This document shows, one piece after another, positions 1 to 64,000 of a DNA stretch of 64,000 nt (position 1 is its first letter; each line of letters begins with the position of its first letter). The DNA is from Lutjanus erythropterus (Eukaryota; Chordata; Actinopteri; Lutjaniformes; Lutjanidae). The DNA is taken from positions 4,192,751 to 4,256,750 of the forward strand of contig CM034608.1 of assembly GCA_020091685.1 (NCBI GenBank), written 5' to 3'. The notes below the pieces were generated by a model, which worked only from the letters and a program-made list of their open reading frames with translations, was not told where the DNA came from and made no database searches. Both the position numbers and the translations under genes were made by a program.

Positions 1-3000
1 TCCTCTTGACCACATGACTGCATAGTGACATGGGTTAGGAAAGGACTCAACCCAGGGACGCTCCACCTGGGGCATGGGGTTGGCAATCCGGAACGACATT
101 CCCCACTTAGATCCATGCCCATTGGTAGGGGTATGATGCTGCTGAATACTGCTGCTCATGCTTTTCCCAGACATCCCTGGGTTCAGAAGTGATCCATTTT
201 TCCATGAAACGTTCCACTGTTTCTCAGGATATCGTTCCCTGAACATCTGATTATCAAAGGATCGGCTCATTTTAGCTTGGGCTTTCTGTAGGGACATCTT
301 CCCTCTCCGGTGGTGGATCTCCATTAACATATAGACCTCGTTCTCTCTTGGCACCCGCTCAGCCCAGAGCTCTGTGTTAAAGCCAGATGACTTCCAGGCC
401 TCTCTCCACTGGGTTAGAGATGGCTTATCATGGTGGAACTGAGTTTCTGAGAACATCCAGGCATCCTGCCAGTCAAAAACGGACCTAGCATGGACTGAGT
501 GTCCAACTGACCTGTGTGTGTGTGAATTGTCAGGATATTGGGAAGCCATACTTGACCTTCCTTGGCTGGTTTGTGCGCTACCTTGCCCTTGTGATCGCTG
601 CTGGGGCCTCGCAAACCTCCATGATTCTCCCCAGCTTCGCTCCCCAGTTGGCCCATTCTTAGGGAGTTCAACAGGCGCAAAGTGGTTCTGGTCCCTTGCG
701 CGGTCCACTCGGATTTGGGGGATGGTGGGCCAACCCTGTTGCCACAATTCAGGCTCCTGATGCAGAGGCTGACAGTTGAATTTCCATGAGTCTTTCAGGT
801 CTGAGGCATTAGGCTTCATGTCTCCTGTCTTCTCAGATGATCTGAAAGGCCTTGAAGGGTCAGGCCTCATTCTTCTTCTCTCCATCCTCATTCTGTGCTT
901 CAGTGCCCTCCAGGAATCCCTCCACTCTGGGGCAGGTAAGACAATTTCCAGGTGTCTCAGGCGAAGCAGGTTGGATTGGGTGAATTCTCTTCTTGGGTGA
1001 TATAACACACTGTGTTTCAACTGCTCATAGGATGGGTCTACTTTATCTGAAGTTGGATAATGCCCTTTCTCCACCTTCTGGGCCTCCATCTTTGGTGGCG
1101 AGAGCTTCAGGACTTTCTCTATTTCTTCACATGGTTTAGAGTTGTTTTTTGTCACCTGCCACGCCTTGCTCCACTCAGAGAGAGCCTTAAATTCATCACA
1201 GAGTTGCATGTATAGATCTCTGTACTTCTGCTCATGATACACAAACATGTCTTCATGGAGACGTGACTCTTTTTGATGGCTGTGATGACTATAGGTTTCA
1301 CCATGATCTTGCCTCTGAGAGGGATCAGCATTCTTGTGGTTGTTGGAGACCACCATGGCTGCTCTCCATGACTCGGCCCACTCAGTCGAACTGTGAGATT
1401 TTTTGACTTTGAGCAACTTGGAGTTGTTGCATCCATGGTGGTTGGCAAGCCTCCAACATTCTTCCCAATTGGAGCTCATCTTTCTATGATTATCTTGCTT
1501 GTTAGCCATAGACTCATTCATTTGACCATTATTTTCGGTAAAACCAACCTCCTGACTTGCTGGCTTAGTGGATCTCCATGAGTCGCTCCATTCTGATGAG
1601 CTCAAGGCCTCATAGTGATGCTGAGTTTCCATCAACAGGGTGAACAATCCAGATTTGTGGACATCCTCTCCATCTACTGTATCCCCCCTCTTATTCTTTT
1701 TGTCAGATTTTCTCCAGGACATCTGCCACTCCTCAGTGGGGAGACTAAAGTCTAGCTCTTCTGACTCCACCATCCTATAGTCAGGTTTCTTCCAGAGATG
1801 AAGGCTGTGAGGATCCATCAAGTTGGGTCCGTTTAGCCAAGGTTTGCCTGGTTCAGAGTAAGGCTGATGAGTAGCAAACATCCAGCACCTGCCCCAGCCT
1901 GGTGTAGCTTCAGCGCCTTCTTCTGCTTGTGGCAAAGATTTGTTGTTCTTCCATGACTTTCCCCACACCATAGCAGAAGGTTGATTCTGGGTGATGGACA
2001 TGAGTAACTGCAGCTTGATTAAATTCTTGTCTTGTCCCCTTTTGGCCATGCCGGAGGCTAGAGTGGACGTGCCTTTTCTCTGGCCTCCTGGCATGCCAAG
2101 TGGACCCGAACCTATGCCACGAGGAAGAGTGGGAGGAGCTTGGGGTTGCTTGCTCTTCCAGACATTTTCGTCTGCCTCAAGCTCACGACGCTTGGGCTTC
2201 CTTTCCACCCTTGTACCTTTTCCCATTCTGACAGCCAATCGATTTTCCCAGTCCTTGTTAATACTGTGGGGAAAAATACAAGTAAAGCAAGTTAGAAAAA
2301 AAGGTAAAAATGGCTGCAGAAAATACAAGGATAACATTTCTCAAAGACAGAATGTAATGGACACTTGCTTCCTCATTCTTGCACTAGTAACAGCATTTTT
2401 CTGTAATTATCGATTCATATATGTATTATGTCAGTATTACATAATGATATGTTGGCAATGCAGGTCCAAATGAAGGACATCTTTCGTCGCTAACAAAGAT
2501 AAATGATTTGTTGTCAGTCTTGGCTTTCAGGAGTTAATACGCACCATTGTGATTCTGTGTTATGTAACAGGTATACATTACAATAAAGGTGGAGTTTTTC
2601 CATGGGCTAGAGTACATGTGATGTATTGCTATCCACAAGGAAGTCCAAAGAGGATACCAGTATATACTGTATGACTGCACTGCTTATATTTAGGCCTGTG
2701 ACAACACTATGTGTAGGGTGAGATAGTGTTACTGAGTGATGCACTGTTACCCGAGTAAAAGTACTGACTGACAGCACTTCAATTGAACCACACAGTTTAT
2801 ATTTATGTACGAGAAACTGGGAGTGTTCTGCTACTGGGTCAATAGACCATGTTGACGCCAGGCTGGTCTTATTAGGGGACAGGTCTCTTCTACCACCAGG
2901 TATACACAAACAAAAATTTGGACTTGCATTAGCAGCATTTGTTGGTGCTTCAAGGATTGCTCTTCACCATTGGAGGAGTCAGGCAAAGACTGTTTTTGAT

Positions 3001-6000
3001 GAATGGCTAAAGTTGATGACGGATATCGCCTCTTTTGAGTTGCTAATAGCAAGGATCAGGGAGGTTTTATGACATGTGGTTTCATTTTTTAATGTACATA
3101 AGAAACATAAAGGATGGAAAATGTTCCTGTCTTCTTATTCAAATGTGCTTAGTACCCTCTTTTTTTCTTTTCTTTTCCTTTCTCTATTAATATGATTACT
3201 AGTTTTGCATTATCATTATTTGTATTATTTATACTGCCGAGTGCAAGACTTTGTTGGTTTTGTTGTTCCACTTGTTTAATGTTATTAGCTGTAGTCTGCT
3301 ATATCGTGTAATAAAAACTTGAATTACAAAAAAAGAAATGAGTCATTAATCATTGCATCTTGCTTTTCTTAATACCATGGCCACATCGGTTCATTGAGAT
3401 GTACAACTGACACAAAGCTATGATGACTGGTCCAATTCACGGAAAAGTTGCGGTTTGCAAGGCTACACAAGAATTCACGGGGACTGGTTGAATTTGCAGT
3501 AATTGCTGTATGTGGTTGTGTATTTGGTTGAATCAAATCAATGCCTGTCTGGGATGTTAGGAAGTCAACAGTTATCTAAAGTAGTAAACAAACATGTTAA
3601 AACATGAAAAAATGTTGGCACTATTGATAAAATATTGAGTGGTTGTGCTTCTTAAGTGGGTTTAAAAAGTCTTGTACAGATTGCACATGTATCCACAGAA
3701 CTGCATGACCAAACTTTGCATTTTCTGTGTGATGTACAGTAACTCTGCCCTGAGCTTCCCCTCCCTCGGTGTTCAGTGTCCACTGTAAAAAAAAAAATAT
3801 TTGTGTTACTTTGTTTAGCTAATCATTACTCCTCCCAGTAAATCTGTCCAGCTGCCGAAGCTGCCTGAGGGGTTGTGACATGTAATCCCTTCTAGAACAT
3901 GTAGCTGCTGTCTGAGCTCTGGTGTTGAGGTTAACTGCCAATCTTACAGCGTGCTGATGGATCAGATTTCCCTTTTGGAACACCTTCACTGTAAAAACTT
4001 TCAATGTAAATTTACAGTCATTAACTGGCAGCAGCTTCATCTGCTAAGTACTGTATTTTTTACAGTTTCTTACTGTATTTTAGAATTCAGTATATGAAGT
4101 CAAATAAATGTGCAGTTTATTACTGTATTCTTGTAAATTCACAACATAATTCTGGTCACAGTTTTGTCAGTAAATAACTGGATGTTTATATTATATATTT
4201 AAAACTACAACAGTAGCCTGTATTTACTTTTTTTGTAAATTTTATTAGCATGCTATTAATAATAATAATGATAATGGCAATAAGATCAATGAAAATATGA
4301 TAAAGGGACAATTAATTGATTATTAGTCCATTTTTAAATTAATTGCCAACTATTTTGATAATGGATTAATCAGTTTGAGTAATTAGGAAGAATTACCGTT
4401 TCTTAAGGAAAGTTTTGAAGGAAAGAAACATGCATTTTTTTTATAAAATCTGATTTTCTTTTAGGGGTGGGGCAAAAAATTGAATAAATGAAAGAAAACA
4501 TTTATGCCAGAAATGTACACAAGTTCAGGTTAGAGGGACAAAGTGTTCTATATCTTTTCTATGAGAATTAATGGTAAAATTAAAATTATTCAGCACAAAA
4601 ATGCTGTTAAAGTTTACATATTATTTTGTTAGTTTCATTCTTTAAAAGTCTTTGAAACTCGGGTTATTTGGTATAGAAATCCTCCCTATTTTCGTAAGTA
4701 TGGTTGTAGTATGCCTGTGTCTTTGTGTTGGCAGAGACTGGGCTCCAAAGTTGAGTGTTTCATTTTTACAGTTTCCCATGCTTTAATTTCACCTTCCCAA
4801 GATGCTCATCTGTTTACCGTTAAGTTAAAGTGCTTAAAGTGCTGTAATCATGTTATTTTTCCTCTCATGTTGCATTGCAGTTTACAGTATGACACTATAT
4901 GACACTAATACAGCAGAATACTCTTCAGCTTTCATTGTAAATTTACACCAAAGAGTTACAGTGTCCATTCTCACCTCTCTGAATTGTGTTTGTCAGCAGA
5001 ATAAAGTGATCTCGGAGAAACTTCTATTTATATATCAAATTTTGGGCAGAGGAAACAGCTTGTCAGTGTAAGTAATGAACCTCTTCTGTAATTACAGAAC
5101 CTGTCGCTCCCTCCCTGTCCATACGTATACATGTCCCTGCTGTAGCATTGAAGTCATCTTCTTCATCTTCATCATCTACTGGTAATTCAGCCTGTAGGCA
5201 CTTGCTTCTGATCCTTGCCTGCCTTTTTAGAGTTTTGCTTGCTTGCTTTTACCTCTTTGGACTTGGATACCTGTTTTGATTGTCTACCTATTGCTTCCTA
5301 TAATACAGCGTAGTACAGCTGTCTTGCACTAAATCCTACCCTCGTAAAGGCTCTTTTTTTTGTTGAAGCTGCTTTAAAACAGTGTCGGTCACCGGAGGAT
5401 ATTTTGGGTGGCTGCTGTTTAACAGTATTAAGCTGGAGATATACTTGCTGTTTAGCCACACATTTGCATAGAGTTCATTTTTGATGACGTACAAAACCGT
5501 CGCTCCAAACCAATGCAGTATATGTGAGTGAACGCTTAAGTGTCATGGCTTGGCAATGCTTATATCTTCAGCCTTAGCCTGGCATCACCAGTGCAAGTGT
5601 GAATTACTCTGGAATCTCTGTTAACTTTCAAATTCAAAGAGGCATTATCAACATGCACAGGCCAAAATGCATGTTAATGCAGTTGGATACATCTACAACC
5701 AATTAGAACAATGAAACTTGACCTAGAACCAAAGAGAGCAAAGAAACGTGTGATGTAACTGTGCTCAGTCTGTTTCCAAGCAGGGCACAGAAAGGCAGCT
5801 ACCCGGTTCCAACCTTTCTCTTATATCTCTCTATATATCTCTATAAATCATCATACAGAACCGATCTAACGTCTATAAATGGTTGTGGTTGGCTACAACT
5901 GTCTTGCATTATACAGAGAGATGCTTTGGTTGTTAATTCTATCAATATTTATTATTCTATTCTATCCATTCTATTATTCTATCCTCACTAATATGGGTTG

Positions 6001-6720
6001 GACAAAAATAACATAAACACTTGTTAGTATAACACAATACAGTTCAGCAGTACCACATATTATGTCCTTCAACTGTATATTACAGGTGAACAAAATGCAG
6101 TTGTAATTAAAGGAGAATGCTGGTTCAGTCTTAAATTTGACATGCATTAATCTGGACAGTGTGTTAGTCAAGTTCACCAAAGCAGAAATAAAACAGTCTA
6201 TCAGAGAGTTGACTTGTTTAGTGGAAGTTTGGTTTATGTGGAAACTGAGACAAAGACCGTATTTTTATGTTTAAAAGCACTTTCAAATTCTGATTAATAA
6301 ATATCCTGCTTCATTTTAACTAACTTTATTTTAATTTCACAAATTACATAAAAGATGTAAACATAGACTTGTTTCATCTGATTTCATGGACAGTCTGTCC
6401 TAATGGCAGACATTAATTATAAAGAAATTTTGGATCTTCTCAAGGATTAACTTGTGTAGATCATATCGAGGCATCAGTAGTAAACTTAGACTGTTTCATA
6501 AACAGGTAAAAACTCCTTGAGGTAGCTTTAAAAACATTTTAAGGACAGGCAGACACAGACAGATAAAGAGTTTTGGTCCTTACGAGGTCAGAGCACTCTT
6601 GTCCATTCGTTCCTGCTCCTGCTGCATCTTCTGTCCGTACTCCTTCTCTCTGATCTCCCAGACATTCTTCATGATGGAGGCGTCGCAGCCGACCACCTCG
6701 GGGTTCTTCTCGTTAGACAT
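1..6720 (-). CDS. Trp-motif repeat protein of unknown function, 3' end beyond the window
   Basis: Not a family I recognise. Two coding exons are seen. The first is 6720-6584: the ATG lies eleven bases inside an exon whose acceptor is at 6732-6733, and the exon ends at a GTAAGG donor after two bases of a codon. The second runs from 2263 to base 1, about 754 codons with no stop, after a CCCCACAG acceptor. The split Ser codon joins in phase. At least 800 residues result. Residues 1-45 are acidic to neutral with a Glu/Gln/Met-rich, probably helical stretch. A basic run lies at residues 67-73. From residue 146 on there are thirteen W-x-x-x-W pairs (first Trp at 146, 169, 225, 271, 312, 341, 410, 493, 553, 590, 644, 665, 729), usually with Ser, Ala or Cys before the second Trp and Arg, Lys or Met after it; residues 538 and 766 hold degenerate copies. 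There is no signal peptide or membrane segment. The existence of the gene is well supported; its function is unknown. Confidence 0.8.
2264..6583 (-). other. Intron of the Trp-motif gene
   Basis: This 4.3-kb intron is bounded by a GTAAGG donor (6583) and a CCCCACAG acceptor (2264). It contains a LINE 3' end near 2870-3340. It also has AT-rich sequence around 4300-4400 resembling the ATTAATC-rich end of a common teleost hAT-like repeat. I see no other coding signal in it. Confidence 0.6.
2870..3340 (+). mobile_element. Tx1/L1-like LINE 3'-end fragment
   Basis: About 45 codons from 2918 read like the extreme C-terminus of an L1/Tx1-type ORF2 (a hydrophobic Ala-rich stretch, then HHW and a Trp-Leu helix), ending at a stop near 3070. 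A 270-base 3' UTR then leads to AATAAA and a short A-rich tail at about 3310-3340. The fragment is truncated 5' and inactive. The family call rests on general resemblance. Confidence 0.45.
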
Positions 6721-6896
6721 CTTCAAATTTCCTGCGCACAGATAAAAAGATGAAGAAACCGCCAAAGAATTATTATTATGTGTTCATTCAGTCTCCTTTC
6801 GGATGCTGATCATGTCTGTCGTATTTTGAAGTAAGGTGGAGATGATGTACCTTGTAGTGATCATCTGTACTTGAGACGCTGCAGGCTGCTCTGCTC

Positions 6897-10683: not shown

Positions 10684-10971
10684 TCACCCAACACCTCGGT
10701 TAAAATCCAGCTGCTGTTGCTGAGGTGGTGGAGGTGAAGTGGCATCAGAATCTGTGTCTGTACTCTTAGCTACTAGCTTCGTCGCTGCATGTTGTTTCTG
10801 TAGGTGTTTCAACAGGTTTGAATTGCTATTTTGGGAAGTAGATAAGATCTTTGATCCAAGACACAACTTACATTTAACTAAAACATTCTTGTCTTTGTGC
10901 TCGACAAAGGTAAAATAGTGAGAATATCTCCACGTAAAGAAACTTGACTTGGGCTCCGCCGCCGATGCCAT
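10684..10971 (-). pseudogene. BED zinc-finger exon of a hAT-type transposon
   Basis: An ATG at 10971 opens about 95 codons with a BED-type finger: an aromatic-rich start (SSFFTWRYSHYF), C-x-x-C (CKLC), then H-x4-H (KHLQKQH), and a Ser/Pro/Gln-rich tail. A donor-like GGTGAGC sits just before the stop, so this looks like the first exon of a hAT/ZBED transposase. No catalytic or dimerisation domain follows, so it is probably a dead remnant. The flanking sequence to 11235 is hAT-like. Confidence 0.6.
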
Positions 10972-11235
10972 GATGATACCAGTCTTGTAAACAGACACGC
11001 CCACACAGCGTGTCTTCTCCTGTCTCCCCGCTGACACACACACACACAACACACACACAGGAAGATTCAGGACTACACGGCTCTGGCTGCAGCTCAGTCT
11101 CTAGCCGAGACTACACAAAAAATAACGCAAAATAACGGAGTAACGCATCATGTAGTAACGTTAACTGAATTACTGAATTTAAAAAATAATGCATTAGATT
11201 ACTAGTTACTTTGTAACGCGTTAGTCCCAGCACTG
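10972..11235 (-). mobile_element. 5' end of the hAT element with terminal repeat
   Basis: On the minus strand the element begins CAGTGCTGGGACTAACGCG and continues with TAACG-rich subterminal sequence, as in a common teleost hAT family. It leads into the BED exon at 10971. I could not find the other end. Confidence 0.5.
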
Positions 11236-23350: not shown

Positions 23351-24285
23351 TTAATATAGAGGAGCCTCGTACAGGTTGGCGTCCTGTTCAGCAGCAGCAG
23401 CAGCAGCATCCTTCAGTACGGTCTGAAACTGAATGACCTTCTGCAGCAGCTCCTCCATGAAGGGGAGGTTTTCGACCAGCTGCTCTGCTGTCTGTCTGTT
23501 CAGCCCCTGCTGTTGCAGAGTCCTCTCAGCCTCCTGAAACATCTCTTCAGTGAAGTTAGTTCCTCCATTCCCCGCCACCATGTCATCGATCTTCCTGATC
23601 AGCTCAATCACTTGAGTTCTGTTACATCTTTGCTTGTTGTTGAAGACATGGTACCGGTTACCGCACTTGTTTATCACCTCTCGCAGTTTCGGGTGGCCAG
23701 CTTGCACGTATTCCCGAATGCTGCTGCCCTGCAGTTCATCGCCACGCGTGAAGAGAACGATCATGTATTTGGCCGCCTCCGGCCCGAAGATTTTCTCCAG
23801 GGCTTGGATGCAGCTTTGCTCTTCTGTGGTGAACCTGCCTATTTGGATGACCAGCAGGAAGGCGTGAGGGCCGGGAGCAGCCACCTGGATGCATTTTGCA
23901 ATCTCGTTCCTTATGCTCTCTGCACTTTTAGACGTATCCAGAACCCCGGGCGTGTCGATGATGTGGATCTTCCTGCGACTGTTAACACGTTCTTTCTCGC
24001 AGGTTATGGTCACAGACTCCGCACTCGCCGAAGACTGGAAAACCTTTTTGCCCACGATGGTGTTACCAGCTGCACTCTTCCCGACCCCAGTCTTCCCGAT
24101 CATCACAATCCTCAATGGAGGACCTGCAAACATAAAGAGATATATTGTGTACATACTTTAAACAGTGGTCAACGCAACAAACAAAAAAAACACCTAATTA
24201 GTCAGTGTTGACAGTAATATGCTGAGCTGAAGAAAGCTAAAACAGTTCAAACTTCACCGTCAGGTAGTGAGATGAGGTTACCCAT
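23351..24285 (-). CDS. GIMAP-family (AIG1-type) GTPase, N-myristoylated type
   Basis: Two coding exons. Exon 1 is 24285-24258: ATG GGT AAC..., M-G-N-L-I-S-L-P-D plus one base, then a GTGAAG donor. Exon 2 is 24123-23351 after a TTTGCAG acceptor. The joined frame is 801 nt, or 266 residues. The start MGN.IS fits an N-myristoylation site, so membrane association is likely. G motifs: P-loop GKTGVGKS at 19-26, DTPG at 66-69, and the family-typical G4 TRGDEL at 135-140. A VFNN stretch follows, then a Gln/Glu-rich, probably coiled C-terminal region with an Ala run. GIMAPs are septin-like GTPases mostly studied in lymphocytes; fish have many. The exact orthologue cannot be named. It is divergent from the plus-strand GIMAP gene starting at 24477. 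Confidence 0.9.
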
Positions 24286-26717: not shown

Positions 26718-29700
26718 CATTATTATTATTATTACAAACACAAAAGAAAGAAAGTTGTACTGGCACTAAACATGTTTTAGTTATTAGAACCTCTAAACAA
26801 ATTTAAAGTTCACTAAATTTATAATAATACATAAATTAATTAATTTCAGTTTTACAGTGGGTGAGAAAACATATACATGATCAATAAAAAAAAACAAGAT
26901 TTTTAGCATTGTGTAAAGTAATATTTATATGGAACAATTCAATTTCAGTTTTATTAACTCATTTCACATATCTGAACATTGAGACCACAGTTGTGGGACA
27001 TAAACAAAAGTGGTCTTTGGACCCATAAAATGCTTCATAAATGTAATGAAATCACATTATATTTTGTCAAGATGTTTAATAACACTGTGTATATATTTAT
27101 CAAGCATAATGTGAGAAATTCAAATATAAATCCAAAATTTTACTGCTGGGACTTCAAAGTGTTTGTAGTTTAAAAAACATCTATAAATGACAATCTGTTG
27201 TGCAATAAATGTATTTTTCTGTTTCTACAAATATTCTTTCTACTTCATAATATGAACTTTTATATTTTTTTCATATTTTATTGTCTGTTTTTTCATGCTT
27301 CTCAATTTATAGTAATTGCTTTTTATCTGTCTCTATTTTCTACTTACTGTGATTATTATGTGCCAGTGAGACAAATACCTACTTTGCAACAAACCTGATT
27401 GTGATTCTCATTCTGATTCTGACAGCATATCCTGAAAAGTTAACTGTCGCCCTGTTTGGAAAGAACGCACAGTTCAAGACCATGATTGGAAATACGATCC
27501 TCGATAGTCAAAATACTTCCCTCACAATGTCAAACAACCTTGTCATGGGAGAAAGCAACTCTTTCAAAATCATCAGTGCCCCTGATTTATGTGATGAAGA
27601 ACGTCCACACCCAGACCAGGACATTATTGACTTGATGGCACTATCTTATCCTGGTCCAAATCTCTTCATACTGGCACTAGATCCAGAAAACACTGGAACA
27701 CAGGAACAGGTCATAGCCCAAATCAGTAAACTTGAACATACCTTTGGAGAAGACGTCTTAGAACACTTGATCCTCGTGTTCCAGGACGAGGAGAGCTTCC
27801 ATTCACTCAGGCATCTACAGGAAGACCGCTGTTTCTGTTTGGGCGATGGAAATCTGGCCAATAATTGTAGGAAAGTATGTTCTGGTCATCTGTCATTCAT
27901 GTATGACTACAAAAACTACAGTAAAGATGTTGTGACAAGAAGAAGGACAATCTTACAGAAGAGAGGGTAAAAATTTAATTACTACATAAGAGTTCTGATC
28001 ATACCTGGAGAGCAGAAGTCCCATCCTACTTTATGGCTACCCTGTGTTTCTCAGTATATTTTCTCAGAAGTTTTTTTCATCAGGCTTTCTGAAGAGCTGA
28101 AATTCAACAATTAGTATAGCAATGGTTACCAAACTGAGGGCGAGCCCCCCGGGAGCTCTTTAAGTCTCCATATCTCTCCATTGGAGACACAGATTCTGAG
28201 AATTGCGGCTCATTAACTCACAACCAGCTCTACATCACTGTCCATGCCACCCAGCGTGGTGGTCCGTCTCCCCCATGTCCCCTGACCCCCAGCATCACAT
28301 GCTATGAAGGCCATGCCTCCTATAGTCATTGCTCCCTCTCTCATTTAGCTTAAAATACAACAATATCATGCTGCAGATTCCTGAAACCCATTTTGAGAAA
28401 CTTGGATGAACACAAAGCAGGATGGGATTTCTCTATTTTTATAATCTTGTGATTTAAACTAAATATGATAACCATTTCAGATGCAATGGCCAGCCTCTGC
28501 ATGACCATGAAGAACCAGGCAAGTCTCTAGTTTTATTACTTTCAACTGTATTTGTTCATAAAATGTTGTAATGCTGAAGTAGCTAATCATTTGAAAACAT
28601 ACATATAAATCTGATTTGAGACATTGGCAGGAAAGAATTCCAGGTTGTATTTAATTGGCTAATTTTGGCCCATGCAGCTGTTCTCACTGGGTACTGGGTT
28701 CCACCTTGGTTATGCTTTGTTACTGATTCTTTTCATGGAAAGAAAATCCAGGCAATGGGCGCCACCGTGGCTAGTATGGGGGCTGGGTCCTTGGCAGGGG
28801 CCCTTTGCTGCATGTCTTCCCCCACTCTCTCCCCACTTCTTGTCCTATCCAATTAAGGCAAAAAGGCCAAAAAATAATCTAAAAAAATAATAATAAAGAT
28901 AGATAGTACAATATGTTGACTTCAGGAATGCATCCCTGCTTTTTGTGAATGATGTGGTTCTCTGACCTGTGACCTCAAACACGCACTGCGATGGTTTGGA
29001 GCAGTTTCTGAAGTGGTTGTGATGAGAGTCAGCATCTCTAAGTCTGTTACCATGGAAATCTGCACTGAAAAAGGTGGATTGCTATCCCCAGGTTGTGGTT
29101 CAGCTTGAAGGGACGTTCTTAGGGTGTTTTCACACCTACCTCGTATGGTCCAGACTTTTCAGACTTTTCAGTTTGAATCAGACCAAAGTTCCAGGTGTGA
29201 AACATCCTGAACCATGGTTCAGTTAGATCCAGAAATGAGACCACCTCTTTCCACCAGACCAAAGTCCAGCTTTTTGGCTCAGAACGTGTCAGGGGGAGGT
29301 TTCACACTAGAAATTTTGGGCTGGATCAAACTGAAAAATCTGAAAGTCCGGGGTAGGTGTGAAAATGCCCTTAAAAAATGACCCTTGTTTCAGACCTTTG
29401 TTTCATTGCAAAAATGCCTAAAGACATTGCAACATGAATCACAGTTTTTGAGAAAAGTTGTCTTGAAATCAGGGAAATTAGGCCACAGCAATCCTCAAAA
29501 TAGCCTGCAAAATCCTGGAGGGACTGGTTAATAAATGGCACTATGTACGGTGCTTCTTCACAGGTGCTGACCCCATGAGTCCATCCACCTCTCAACAAGC
29601 CTGTGCTGCAGCTCCTGAAGCAACACTTGGATGTCACACAGGTATGTTTCAAGAGATTAAATTCAACATATGTTAGGTTTAACACCAGTAAGTTTGAGCC

Positions 29701-32042
29701 AGATCAAACTGAAAAATCTGAAAGTCCGGGATAGGTGTGAAAATGCTCTTCTAAAAATTGCCCTTGGTTCAGACCCGGGTCTGGGCTTTTAAGTGTGAAA
29801 GCACCCTAAGACCACAGTCAGGTGAACTTTGGAGTGCTGTGAATACCATTCAAAGCAGTCACAGAAGTGTACCTTCGTATGTGTCATTTCACTGGTTAAA
29901 AATATTTTCTCTCCCTGTTTTGGTGACTGGTGAAATTGTAGTGTGTTTGCTACCAAAATGTGGATTGGCAGGGGACAAACCTGGACTCAAGACAATGTCA
30001 GAAATCCCTATACCCCAACATGAACAGAACCTGATGGTGCTCCATGCTGTACGATATCCTGGTAGAAACTGGGTCATTCATCGTCTTTTTACCTGCCATC
30101 TGTATGACCAATAATTGAACATTTCTACCACATGACTTTTGTTTGCAATTTCTGGACAGCTTGAGTTTTGCCATTTTGAACACAAACTGGACCAGTTAGA
30201 AAACTGAAATACTGTATCATCCTTGCATTGGTTCAATTCAGGAAGCTGTGAATCAACCTTAAGGGTCAAGTTACACTAGAAAGGAACTAGTTCCTACAAT
30301 GTGTTGTTCAAACTCTTAAGAGCACAAAAGTGTTTATCCTTTTCTGGACAGTTTGAATCCAGAGTGAAAACATGGCAAATATAAGGCGGGGTTAGACACA
30401 ATAATCCATTGATATGGAGATATCTGTATACAGCTGGCCAATCATGGCAAAATTTATTGGGCACAGCCACCACAATTCAAAGCAATTAACGGAAGTTATG
30501 TCCAAACCTCCTCCTGGATACTTCACTGTCGGGGCATTTGGGGGCCTATCGAACTGGAAAGATGTCCTAACGGCAGACCCAGAACACGCTGGGGGGATTA
30601 CATGATCCATTCTGGCCCAGCTGTGAAGTGCAACTGACAGATTTCTAAAAAGGAATCTCAGTCCCTCCAGGAAGTTGCAATGCTGCAATCACAATGCCCA
30701 TGAATTCTGCACACTCTTGCAATTTTTTTCAACCATCACAATTTTTCCATAAATTTGACCAAACATCATAGCTTCTTGTGAGTTCCAAGTCTCAAAAGAG
30801 CACAAGGTTTGTCATTGTTACTGCAATTTATCAAGGCTCTGTGCACTTTTATATTTGTAATGTTGTTCTCCAGAAAGATTTGCTTTGTTGTGGGATACAC
30901 AGGTGCACTTCTAGATTTTGTTTGAATGTTTGTAATCCCAAGACTTTTTGGTAAGGTGTGGAACAGAGTGCAACTTGATTCCCCCTGGAAAAGGTTACCC
31001 TTGAATTTTAATGGATTATACAATAAATGGCTGTATGTATGCTGCATCTTCACAGGTGCTGACCCCATGAGTCCATCCGCCTCTCAACAAGCCTGTGCTC
31101 CAGCTCCTGGAGCAACACTTGGACGTCACACTGGTATGCTTCGAGAGATTAAATTCAACATATGAGACAGATGAAATATCAGAGTATATGACAGCAACTG
31201 TGACAAATTAAATGCAGTATCCCTTTGCTTATAAAACATGTTTCAGAGGCAAAACAAAGCTGAGATATACTCAAGTGTGTAACATTACCAGCAACCCCTT
31301 CAAAAGTGAAGTCTCTGGGATTTTATGTCTGGAATCTTTTGATGTAATTATTTAGTCAAAAACATTGAAATATTTGCTCCAACTGTATCTTCCAGTTTGC
31401 AGTGCCTATCAACAGCAGGACAACATGTTTAACGTTGTTCTGCTGGGACTGGCAGGGACAGGAAAGAGTGCATCTGCCAACACCATCCTGTTGGCTGGAG
31501 AGCCCCGGCTTCATCCAAATCAACTGTTCAAATCTCAACCAAGTTCTCTGCCGATCACCACAGAGGTCCAGTTTAAAATAACGGTGAAGCAATTCGGGAT
31601 GGAGGTGAGAGTGGTTGACACTCCAGACTTTTTCAACGATGAAGTTAAGAACTCCCAGGCACACATAGAGAAGTGTAAGATATACTGTCAGCCAGGGAAA
31701 TGTGTGGTGCTACTTGTGATACAGCTGGGCCGGTTCACAGACGGTGAGAGAGGAATATTAGAAAAGCTGGAGAACAAGTTCGGCTGGAGGATCAGGGACA
31801 GCACGATCGTTCTGCTGACCCACGGAGATGAGCTGAAAGGAAGTTCGGAGTATTTTATTAACGCACATGATGACCTCAAGCACATTGTTGAATGCTGCAG
31901 AGGTCGTTGTCATATATTTAACAACTCATCCAAGGACACCAAACAAGTCATGGAGCTCATCAGGAAAATCCCATATTATAAAAACCTTTTCCCCAACTTG
32001 CCCCCCAAAATTGTCACCATGCCAGAGTGCTGTGTATGTTAG
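24477..32042 (+). CDS. Two-domain GIMAP-family protein with duplicated linker exons
   Basis: Six exons join in one frame (1419 nt, 472 residues): 24477-24513, 27426-27966, 28481-28518, 29564-29641, 31056-31133, 31396-32042. All donors are GT except exon 3, which has CAG|GCAAGT, the GC-AG consensus. Residues 1-13 are a Pro-rich start. Residues 16-190 form an AIG1-like domain with a broken P-loop (GKNAQFKT at 24-31), SAPD in place of DTPG and no G4 motif. Residues 207-232 and 233-258 are two near-identical 26-residue repeats (ADPMSPS.SQQACA...), one per 78-nt exon. Residues 268-450 are an intact AIG1 domain: GLAGTGKS 275-282, DTPD 332-335, THGDEL 399-404. The protein ends ECCVC, possibly lipidated. 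The first domain is probably a pseudo-GTPase. The consistent phases make the model strong; cDNA is unseen. Confidence 0.8.
25311..26188. mobile_element. TIR element family A, copy 2
   Basis: Ends TGGGCCTCATGCAAGAAC and GTTCTTGCATGAGGCCCA are near-perfect inverted repeats. The interior matches 8814-9795. It lies in intron 1 of the two-domain GIMAP gene. It has no transposase. Confidence 0.8.
26680..26734. repeat. (ATT)n microsatellite
   Basis: About 18 units of TTA with one C interruption, in intron 1 of the plus-strand GIMAP gene. Confidence 0.95.
29118..29373. mobile_element. Short TIR element in a GIMAP intron
   Basis: Begins TTAGGGTGTTTTCACACCTA and ends TAGGTGTGAAAATGCCCTTAA, an imperfect inverted pair. 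A second partial copy lies at about 29695-29810 (GATAGGTGTGAAAATGCTCT to AAGCACCCTAAG). It is a MITE-like element of about 255 bp. Confidence 0.6.
29380..29526. mobile_element. Right end of a CAGTCCCTCCAGGA TIR element
   Basis: Ends TCCTGGAGGGACTG at 29526, the inverse of the left ends at 17394 and 30659. It lies 37 bases upstream of the first copy of the duplicated 78-nt exon. Confidence 0.6.
30659..31008. mobile_element. Left part of a CAGTCCCTCCAGGA TIR element
   Basis: The left end CAGTCCCTCCAGGAAGTTGC is followed by sequence like 17394-17800. It lies just upstream of the second copy of the duplicated 78-nt exon. The right terminus is lost or merged with the duplicated intron sequence. 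Confidence 0.55.
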
Positions 32043-41827: not shown

Positions 41828-51985
<10,158 letters not shown>

Positions 51986-63039: not shown

Positions 63040-63315
63040 TTATTTAAGATTTTTAAAAACTTTATTATGCACTTATTAACAGTTACATATACTCCTATTA
63101 ACTGTTAGCTATGATTTTAGGCGTACCGGCTTGACAGTGTGAATGACTTTTTAAAGTTAATAAATCCTTTGTTATGCACTTATTAATAGTTAACTATGTT
63201 TGTTAGGGGCACTGGAGCCACAGTGTGAACAATGCTTTTTAAAGGTAATAAATCATTTATTATGCAGTTAATTAACAGTTTACTATGTGTACGGGAGTAC
63301 TGGATCTAACATGTT
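63040..63315 (-). repeat. Satellite-like monomers, reverse orientation
   Basis: About three degenerate units containing GCACTTATTAA-AGTTAACTATG, a GGGGCACTGGAGCC-type core and TTAAAGGTAATAAATC. They are the reverse complement of the monomers at 63649-64000. Confidence 0.65.
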
Positions 63316-63648
63316 AACTGCCCTGGGTAAGTTGCTCTTCTCCTGGTCCTGATGAAGCACTGGTTAACATCATAGCGAGGTTAACATTAGTGTCTCGCAG
63401 AAGCCTGCAGTGCTTTGAAGGGTATAGCCAATCGGAGCAGAGTAGTTGCGGGTCTTCCCACAAGGCTTACTTGGTGGGCGCATCCAGCGAATGTATATCA
63501 GTTTAGTCTCTCCCAACTGTGAAATGCATATGTAACTGCATTTTTTAATGCAAAAAGCTGGAAATGCCTCACTAGCTCACCTGGTAAATCATGTGCTCCA
63601 TACATTGAGTTCTTACCACTGAAAGCAGGTTTGCATCCAATGAAGGCC

Positions 63649-64000
63649 TAATGCAGGATTTATTAACCTTAATAAGGCCTGCTAACACTTTAGATCCAGG
63701 GCATCCCAGAAAGCATACTGAACTGTTAATAAGTGTATAGTTAACTGTTAATAAGTGGTTTATTAACCTTGATCAGGCTTGTTCCCATCTTAGATCCAGT
63801 GCATCCCAAAAAACACACTGAACTGTTCATAACTGTAAATAAGTGGTTTATTACCCTTGATAAGCCCTGTTCAGATTTTAGACCCAGTGCATCCCAAAAA
63901 GCATAGTTAACTGTTAATAAGTGCATAATAAAGGATTTATTAACCTTAATAAGCATTGTTCAGACTTCTGATCTGTTGCCCCCCAGAAAACATAGTAACT
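63649..64000 (+). repeat. Satellite-like monomers, forward orientation, running off the window
   Basis: Four units of about 80-98 bases: TTTATTAACCTTAATAAG, then AGATCCAGTGCATCCCA, then AAGCATAGTTAACTGTTAAT and AAGTG. Boundaries fall near 63748, 63828 and 63915. The array continues past the right edge. Confidence 0.75.

Follow-up and report, generated by a model that had tools for sequence, protein, structure and literature searches.

A repeated tryptophan-pair motif conserved in a family of probably disordered fish proteins, encoded in part in a genomic window of Lutjanus erythropterus

The window considered here, by which we mean the whole of the DNA that was analysed, is a stretch of 64,000 nucleotides from Lutjanus erythropterus. 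At one end, positions 1..2263 of the minus strand are confirmed as coding; they form an exon of a genuine gene, for which the databases offer only the name 'uncharacterized', and it is this gene that is our subject. The remainder of the window includes three frames of the AIG1/GIMAP-type GTPases, located at 23354-24157 on the minus strand (Pfam AIG1, 232 bits), at 31356-32039 on the plus strand (132 bits) and at 27353-27967 on the plus strand, where the match is weak (41 bits) and the frame may be a decayed or atypical copy. A DnaJ-domain exon is recognized by Pfam at 41848-42327 (plus strand). Judging by eye, we take this exon and a downstream frame at 49368-49787 (plus strand), which gave no Pfam match above the cutoff and no match in the PDB, to resemble DNAJC25. 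The BED zinc finger frame at 10687-11100 (minus strand; Pfam zf-BED, 22.4 bits) possibly derives from a hAT-type transposon, and the far end of the window (63142-64000) is occupied by a foldback, MITE-like element of 88-bp tandem repeats with long inverted arms, of which 63147-63207 and 63893-63953 are 89% complementary. Searching all 64,000 nucleotides against Rfam at gathering scores, together with a tRNA scan, returned no match.

The minus-strand frame that runs from 2263 to 1 contains no stop for 754 codons, an event with a chance of ~8e-18 at the base composition of the window. A sequence-only reading of this DNA had already drawn attention to both the unbroken frame, which reaches the window edge, and the splice acceptor at its start, and in both respects it was right. 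The stop-to-stop open reading frame is somewhat longer (2340..1, minus strand, 780 codons), the part above 2263 being intron, and the acceptor, ...ccccacag|TATTAAC at 2264/2263, marks the start of coding exon 2. Coding exon 1, which the sequence-only reading had missed, was located by tblastn with the N termini of eight orthologs as queries (best identity 83%, E 8e-24) and lies at 6584..6720 of the minus strand. It begins with an ATG at 6720 and its product is MSNEKNPEVVGCDASIMKNVWEIREKEYGQKMQQEQERMDKSALTS, with the final Ser codon split by the intron. The latter is a phase-2 GT-AG intron of 4320 bp (2264..6583, minus strand), with a GTAAGG donor directly after exon 1, and joining the two exons restores the Ser codon (TC|T) to give ...SALTSINKDW..., in agreement with the orthologs. 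Just upstream of the ATG, the sequence tgtgcgcag|gaaatttgaag (6721-6745) resembles a splice acceptor, and an upstream non-coding first exon is therefore possible.

Exon 2, which is identified by its open frame, by tblastn and by its homologs, continues past the edge of the window. Over the part that lies inside, the encoded protein is co-linear along its full length with annotated members of the family: it is 83% identical to residues 1-46 of the 967-residue Sebastes ortholog P0004, and tblastn aligns exon 2 with residues 46-810 of the same protein at 67% identity. Because the exon meets the window edge at residue 810 of 967, some 157 codons lie outside the window.

Relatives are numerous. The first search returned 74 proteins and the second, which started from a smelt relative, returned 69; together with a profile search built on 12 divergent members (39 matches, E up to 1), these amount to 102 distinct proteins. 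The records are titled 'uncharacterized', 'hypothetical' or 'unnamed' and carry 61 species names, all of which we take to be those of teleosts, from eel to percomorphs; three that span this range, Anguilla (Elopomorpha), Denticeps and Sebastes, were confirmed as Teleostei by taxonomy. A relative is also known from Oryzias javanicus (P0056). The closest relative is 71% identical to the window protein and that from Anguilla 23%. Relatives from outside the teleosts were sought with the same profile search, which needs shared five-residue words and may miss distant ones; the named proteins among its 39 matches were all fish. The claim that this is a real protein is thus upheld by 102 homologous proteins, intact splice sites and the open frame. 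Orthologs broken by stops or frameshifts were not encountered among these homologs, most of which are of similar length; they are predicted proteins only, and since that is what the search returns, broken orthologs would be missed or would appear as fragments. A few short relatives, such as P0067, P0072 and P0102, are indeed present.

Nine relatives (lgn P0013, P0016, P0019, P0055, P0064, P0075 and P0091; jgi P0057 and P0071) come from contigs of 2.8-3.9 kb and have both exons in one frame. As the exons are 4320 bp apart here, these contigs, whose records do not state whether the source was RNA or DNA, are most simply regarded as spliced transcripts. Conversely, the N termini of P0002, P0003, P0010, P0015 and P0029 consist of intron-like residues followed by SINxDW or SINxEW, as would be expected of genomic reads of the same exon 2 acceptor.

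The family is already catalogued, both as uncharacterized LOCs and under the Pfam accession PF27680, and PF27680.1 is carried by 68 of the 102 relatives. Among these carriers, 67 begin with an exon-1-type N terminus and one (P0101) has it internally, and all 34 relatives without PF27680 are also without this N terminus. The accession therefore tracks the exon-1-type N terminus and would cover the N-terminal helix, not the tryptophan pairs. The conserved helix, ASIMKNVWEIR...SALxxINxDW, is present in the window protein, as the location of exon 1 and the alignment establish. PF27680 evidently covers this helix, and is a label rather than an explanation. The sequence-only reading knew of no named domain with this pattern, and none was matched in the Pfam and PDB searches, the Pfam library used being one without PF27680, in which even the known carriers P0004, P0005, P0062 and P0069 gave no match to it. 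In what could be seen of the open-licence articles in PubMed Central, no description of the repeated motif, or of a mechanism for the protein, was found.

Sequence searches of the PDB gave no match for the exon or for the alignment profile, and the weaker candidates from all sources were rejected. DUF7948, the sole sub-threshold Pfam match in the exon at E up to 1 (10.6 bits), was judged to be due to chance, as was LtuB, a sub-threshold match in P0005 only among P0004, P0005, P0062 and P0069. Pfam searches with 19 N-terminal segments hit four different families, each in a single member (best E 0.044), and an N-terminal profile produced five weak PDB matches, of which the best was ribosomal S21 (E 0.7). 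A 46-row profile of the motif, searched against the PDB at E up to 10, retrieved two P450 entries (E 1.1 and 1.7, one site each) and CASC5 (E 5.4).

Thirteen W-x-x-x-W pairs are distributed along exon 2, exactly as had been counted, compared with 1.5 expected and a maximum of 7 over 10,000 shuffles. Pairs 1 to 13, all on the minus strand, are WGKSW (1951..1965), WGRCW (1882..1896), WQMSW (1714..1728), WSDSW (1576..1590), WEECW (1453..1467), WAESW (1366..1380), WSKAW (1159..1173), WRDSW (910..924), WQQGW (730..744), WGESW (619..633), WQDAW (457..471), WREAW (394..408) and WNVSW (202..216). All 13 have S, A, C or G ahead of the second Trp, and 11 have K, R or M directly after it (Q and P in the others), so both of the residue preferences noted by the sequence-only reading are real; its range of 20-97 residues for the spacing of the pairs requires correction to 21-83, measured from start to start. 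Two further sites on the minus strand are degenerate. At WGMSF (91..105), equivalent to position 776 of P0004, the 89 orthologs that cover the site have F at the second position in 66 cases and W in 23. At LKDSW (784..798), equivalent to W542/W546 of P0004, the first position is W in 85 of 87 covering orthologs. The loss of this first Trp in L. erythropterus might be taken as a sign that the open frame is a chance occurrence or a decayed gene, a notion that is scarcely conceivable in the face of 74 homologs in the first search alone, identity of up to 71%, intact splice sites and 754 open codons.

Across the family the motif conforms to the consensus S-x-[ED]-W-x-[ED]-[SACG]-W-[KR]. The number of pairs per protein ranges from 12 to 21 in 90 aligned proteins, with 16 the commonest value (38 of 90), and from 7 to 22 over all 102 relatives, fragments included. 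In smelt, anchovy and Denticeps, a segment absent from the percomorph, ostariophysan and eel rows compared holds as many as three additional, partly degenerate motifs. Decay, mainly to W-x3-F and W-x3-H, affects two C-terminal sites in many rows.

Conservation was assessed in several overlapping sets. The 90-protein alignment represents 90 of the 102 relatives, five having been lost to a length filter and seven (P0011, P0066, P0071, P0093, P0094, P0095 and P0100) removed by hand; a second alignment contained 72 of the 102 together with the window protein, and a separate conservation measure used 97 homologs. In the last of these, the identity of paired Trp residues was 0.98 compared with 0.47 outside the motifs. 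Among the 72 homologs the values were 0.986 for paired Trp and 0.90 for unpaired Trp (0.88-0.90 over the two sets), and no other residue type rose above 0.61; as Trp is conserved in most proteins, the unpaired residues provide the fairest contrast, and that difference is smaller. The expectation that the pairs would be better conserved than the sequence between them (0.98-0.99 against 0.47) is nevertheless borne out. Over 16 sites in 90 proteins, the first Trp is W in 1387 of 1416 cells and the second in 1395, with F or Y at the second position in just 5. Position +3 holds a small residue (S, A, C, G or T) in 96% or more of the homologs at every one of the 13 sites but one, where the figure is 76%. 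In 10 of the 90 proteins, motif similarity was 0.36 for the same position across species versus 0.16 between positions, and because each copy resembles its own position in other species more closely, the copies must be old and have not been homogenized. Most linkers differ in length from protein to protein, with identities of 47-58%, so that they drift while about thirty tryptophans are nearly frozen across the fish sampled. Some are fixed: that from site 542 to site 560 is of 18 residues in 85 of 87 rows, and that from 647 to 668 is of 21 in 81 of 88.

The composition of the motif was derived from 1610 instances, which come from related proteins and are hence not independent. Proline makes up at most 2% of residues from -1 to +7, versus a background of 6%, and reaches 13-18% at -5/-4 and at +9 to +11. 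At -1 (0.56) and +2 (0.47) acidic residues are over-represented, as are basic ones at +5 (0.70) and +8 (0.36), and S, T, D or N are favoured at -4 and -2. The hydrophobic moment is maximal at 100-120 degrees, a result that is in part built in by the i,i+4 placement of the Trp residues. The charges follow the helix dipole, and the motif has the sequence signature of a short capped helix on which both Trp residues would share one face. AlphaFold2 weakly supports a helix at the motifs: in what are low-confidence models, a predicted helix spans both Trp residues in only 2 of the 13 window motifs and 2 of the 16 in P0004, and touches one Trp at several others.

The one clearly ordered part in the predictions is the N-terminal helical segment, encoded by exon 1 and the start of exon 2; in the model of P0004, helices are placed at residues 7-41 and 44-59, with block means of 90-95 over residues 21-60 and lower values before. 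Of the 967 residues of P0004, 793 have a pLDDT below 50 (mean 43.2, 90-row alignment), and for the window exon the corresponding figures are 494 of 755 (mean 49.5, 73-row alignment). Low pLDDT may reflect a poor alignment instead of disorder. By a charge/hydropathy measure, all six proteins tested fall on the disordered side, and the proposal of a disordered scaffold thus finds support from both approaches. At this level of model confidence, a Foldseek search of P0004 against the PDB (7 matches, best E 5.6) is meaningless. It could be argued that AlphaFold2, given relatives from fish alone, failed to recognize a single folded solenoid or repeat domain built from the repeats, and the very strong conservation of Trp and the several fixed linkers would suit a folded core. 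Such a domain is improbable given that I, V, L, F and Y constitute only 15-20% of residues in six orthologs, that most linkers are variable in length and sequence, and that mean pLDDT was low with either alignment.

For a probably disordered chain bearing many individually conserved, helix-like diaromatic motifs, multivalent docking is the best explanation, and we infer that the exon encodes most of a soluble, mostly disordered scaffold of ~950 residues. Each of its approximately sixteen short motifs would fold upon binding into a helix of two to three turns, one face of which would present both tryptophans and the small residue; the tryptophans would fill two adjacent pockets of a groove on the surface of a putative partner, and the small residue would allow the helix to approach it closely. 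Carried in many copies on one flexible chain, the motifs could confer avidity or bring together numerous molecules of the partner. We hold the idea of a disordered, multivalent scaffold whose helical pairs dock on a repeated partner with evenly balanced confidence; that it constitutes a new class of helical docking motif, present in ~14-21 copies on a scaffold so far seen only in fish and gathering one putative partner, is put forward more tentatively. The fixed length of some linkers counts against docking in that it exceeds what a free linker needs.

Fixed spacing between some adjacent pairs would also suit helices that bound each other, within and between chains, to build a condensate or structural network. 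Self-assembly would likewise be served by numerous amphipathic motifs of similar kind along a chain that is probably disordered, and head-to-tail pairing might arise between the acidic N-side of one motif and the basic C-side of another. The AlphaFold2 models, each of a single chain, are of too low confidence to bear on packing. A conserved small residue beside the Trp pair would fit a specific pocket better than loose self-association, and we consider such a network unlikely. Nor do we favour a protein that coats membranes through amphipathic, Trp-rich helices, despite its basic character (pI >9 in five of six tested) and the observation that some WxxxF/Y regions of PEX5 also bind bicelles (PMC8086558). 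Acidic residues at -1 and +2 and a scarcity of aliphatic residues make for a poor membrane face, and for lipid binding F, Y or L should do as well as W, which is nevertheless retained in ~98% of cells; this role is very improbable. No membrane span was detected on the Kyte-Doolittle scale in six orthologs, in which the most hydrophobic 19-residue stretch has a mean of at most 0.73.

Known tryptophan motifs were compared with the repeat. The kinesin light chain W-acidic motif, [LM]-x-W-[DE], calls for an acidic residue at +1, which the fish motif lacks in most cases. Neither GW/Argonaute hooks nor AP2 WxxF motifs have the i,i+4 spacing seen here. If a docking scaffold is the correct reading, the nearest studied case is the N-terminal region of PEX5, whose WxxxF/Y motifs are read by the PEX14 NTD and the PEX13 SH3 domain and in some cases form amphipathic helices (PMC11024197, PMC8086558). 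The two systems share multiple diaromatic pentapeptides, with aromatic residues at i and i+4, on a chain that is disordered in PEX5 and probably so here. The fish protein differs in having Trp at the second position, where PEX5 has Phe or Tyr, in its small +3 and basic +5 residues and in carrying about 16 copies of the motif, against 8 reported in human PEX5. The C-terminal TPR domain of PEX5 has no counterpart here: Pfam searches of the window exon (E up to 1) and of four full-length orthologs matched no TPR family. PEX5 is thus offered as an analogy for a possible mode of working, with no sequence relationship found or claimed. With the gene kept from eel to percomorphs and its motif near-invariant, docking can be probed directly, and were the partner conserved in other vertebrates, the two would make a new pairing of short motif and domain beyond those already known.

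A diverged copy in shad offers a further view of what is retained. The Alosa alosa gene model P0101, of 1251 residues, looks like two neighbouring gene copies run together, its residues 244-496 being 51% identical to the C-terminal part of P0076 from anchovy; judged from the protein record alone, the fusion may be an annotation error. Residues 506-1251 make up the second copy, about 22% identical to the family, which has its own N-terminal helix at residues 512-577 (49.8 bits) and 15 pairs, 14 of them with S or A ahead of the second Trp. The N-terminal helix and the tryptophan pairs have persisted in this copy where almost all else has drifted.
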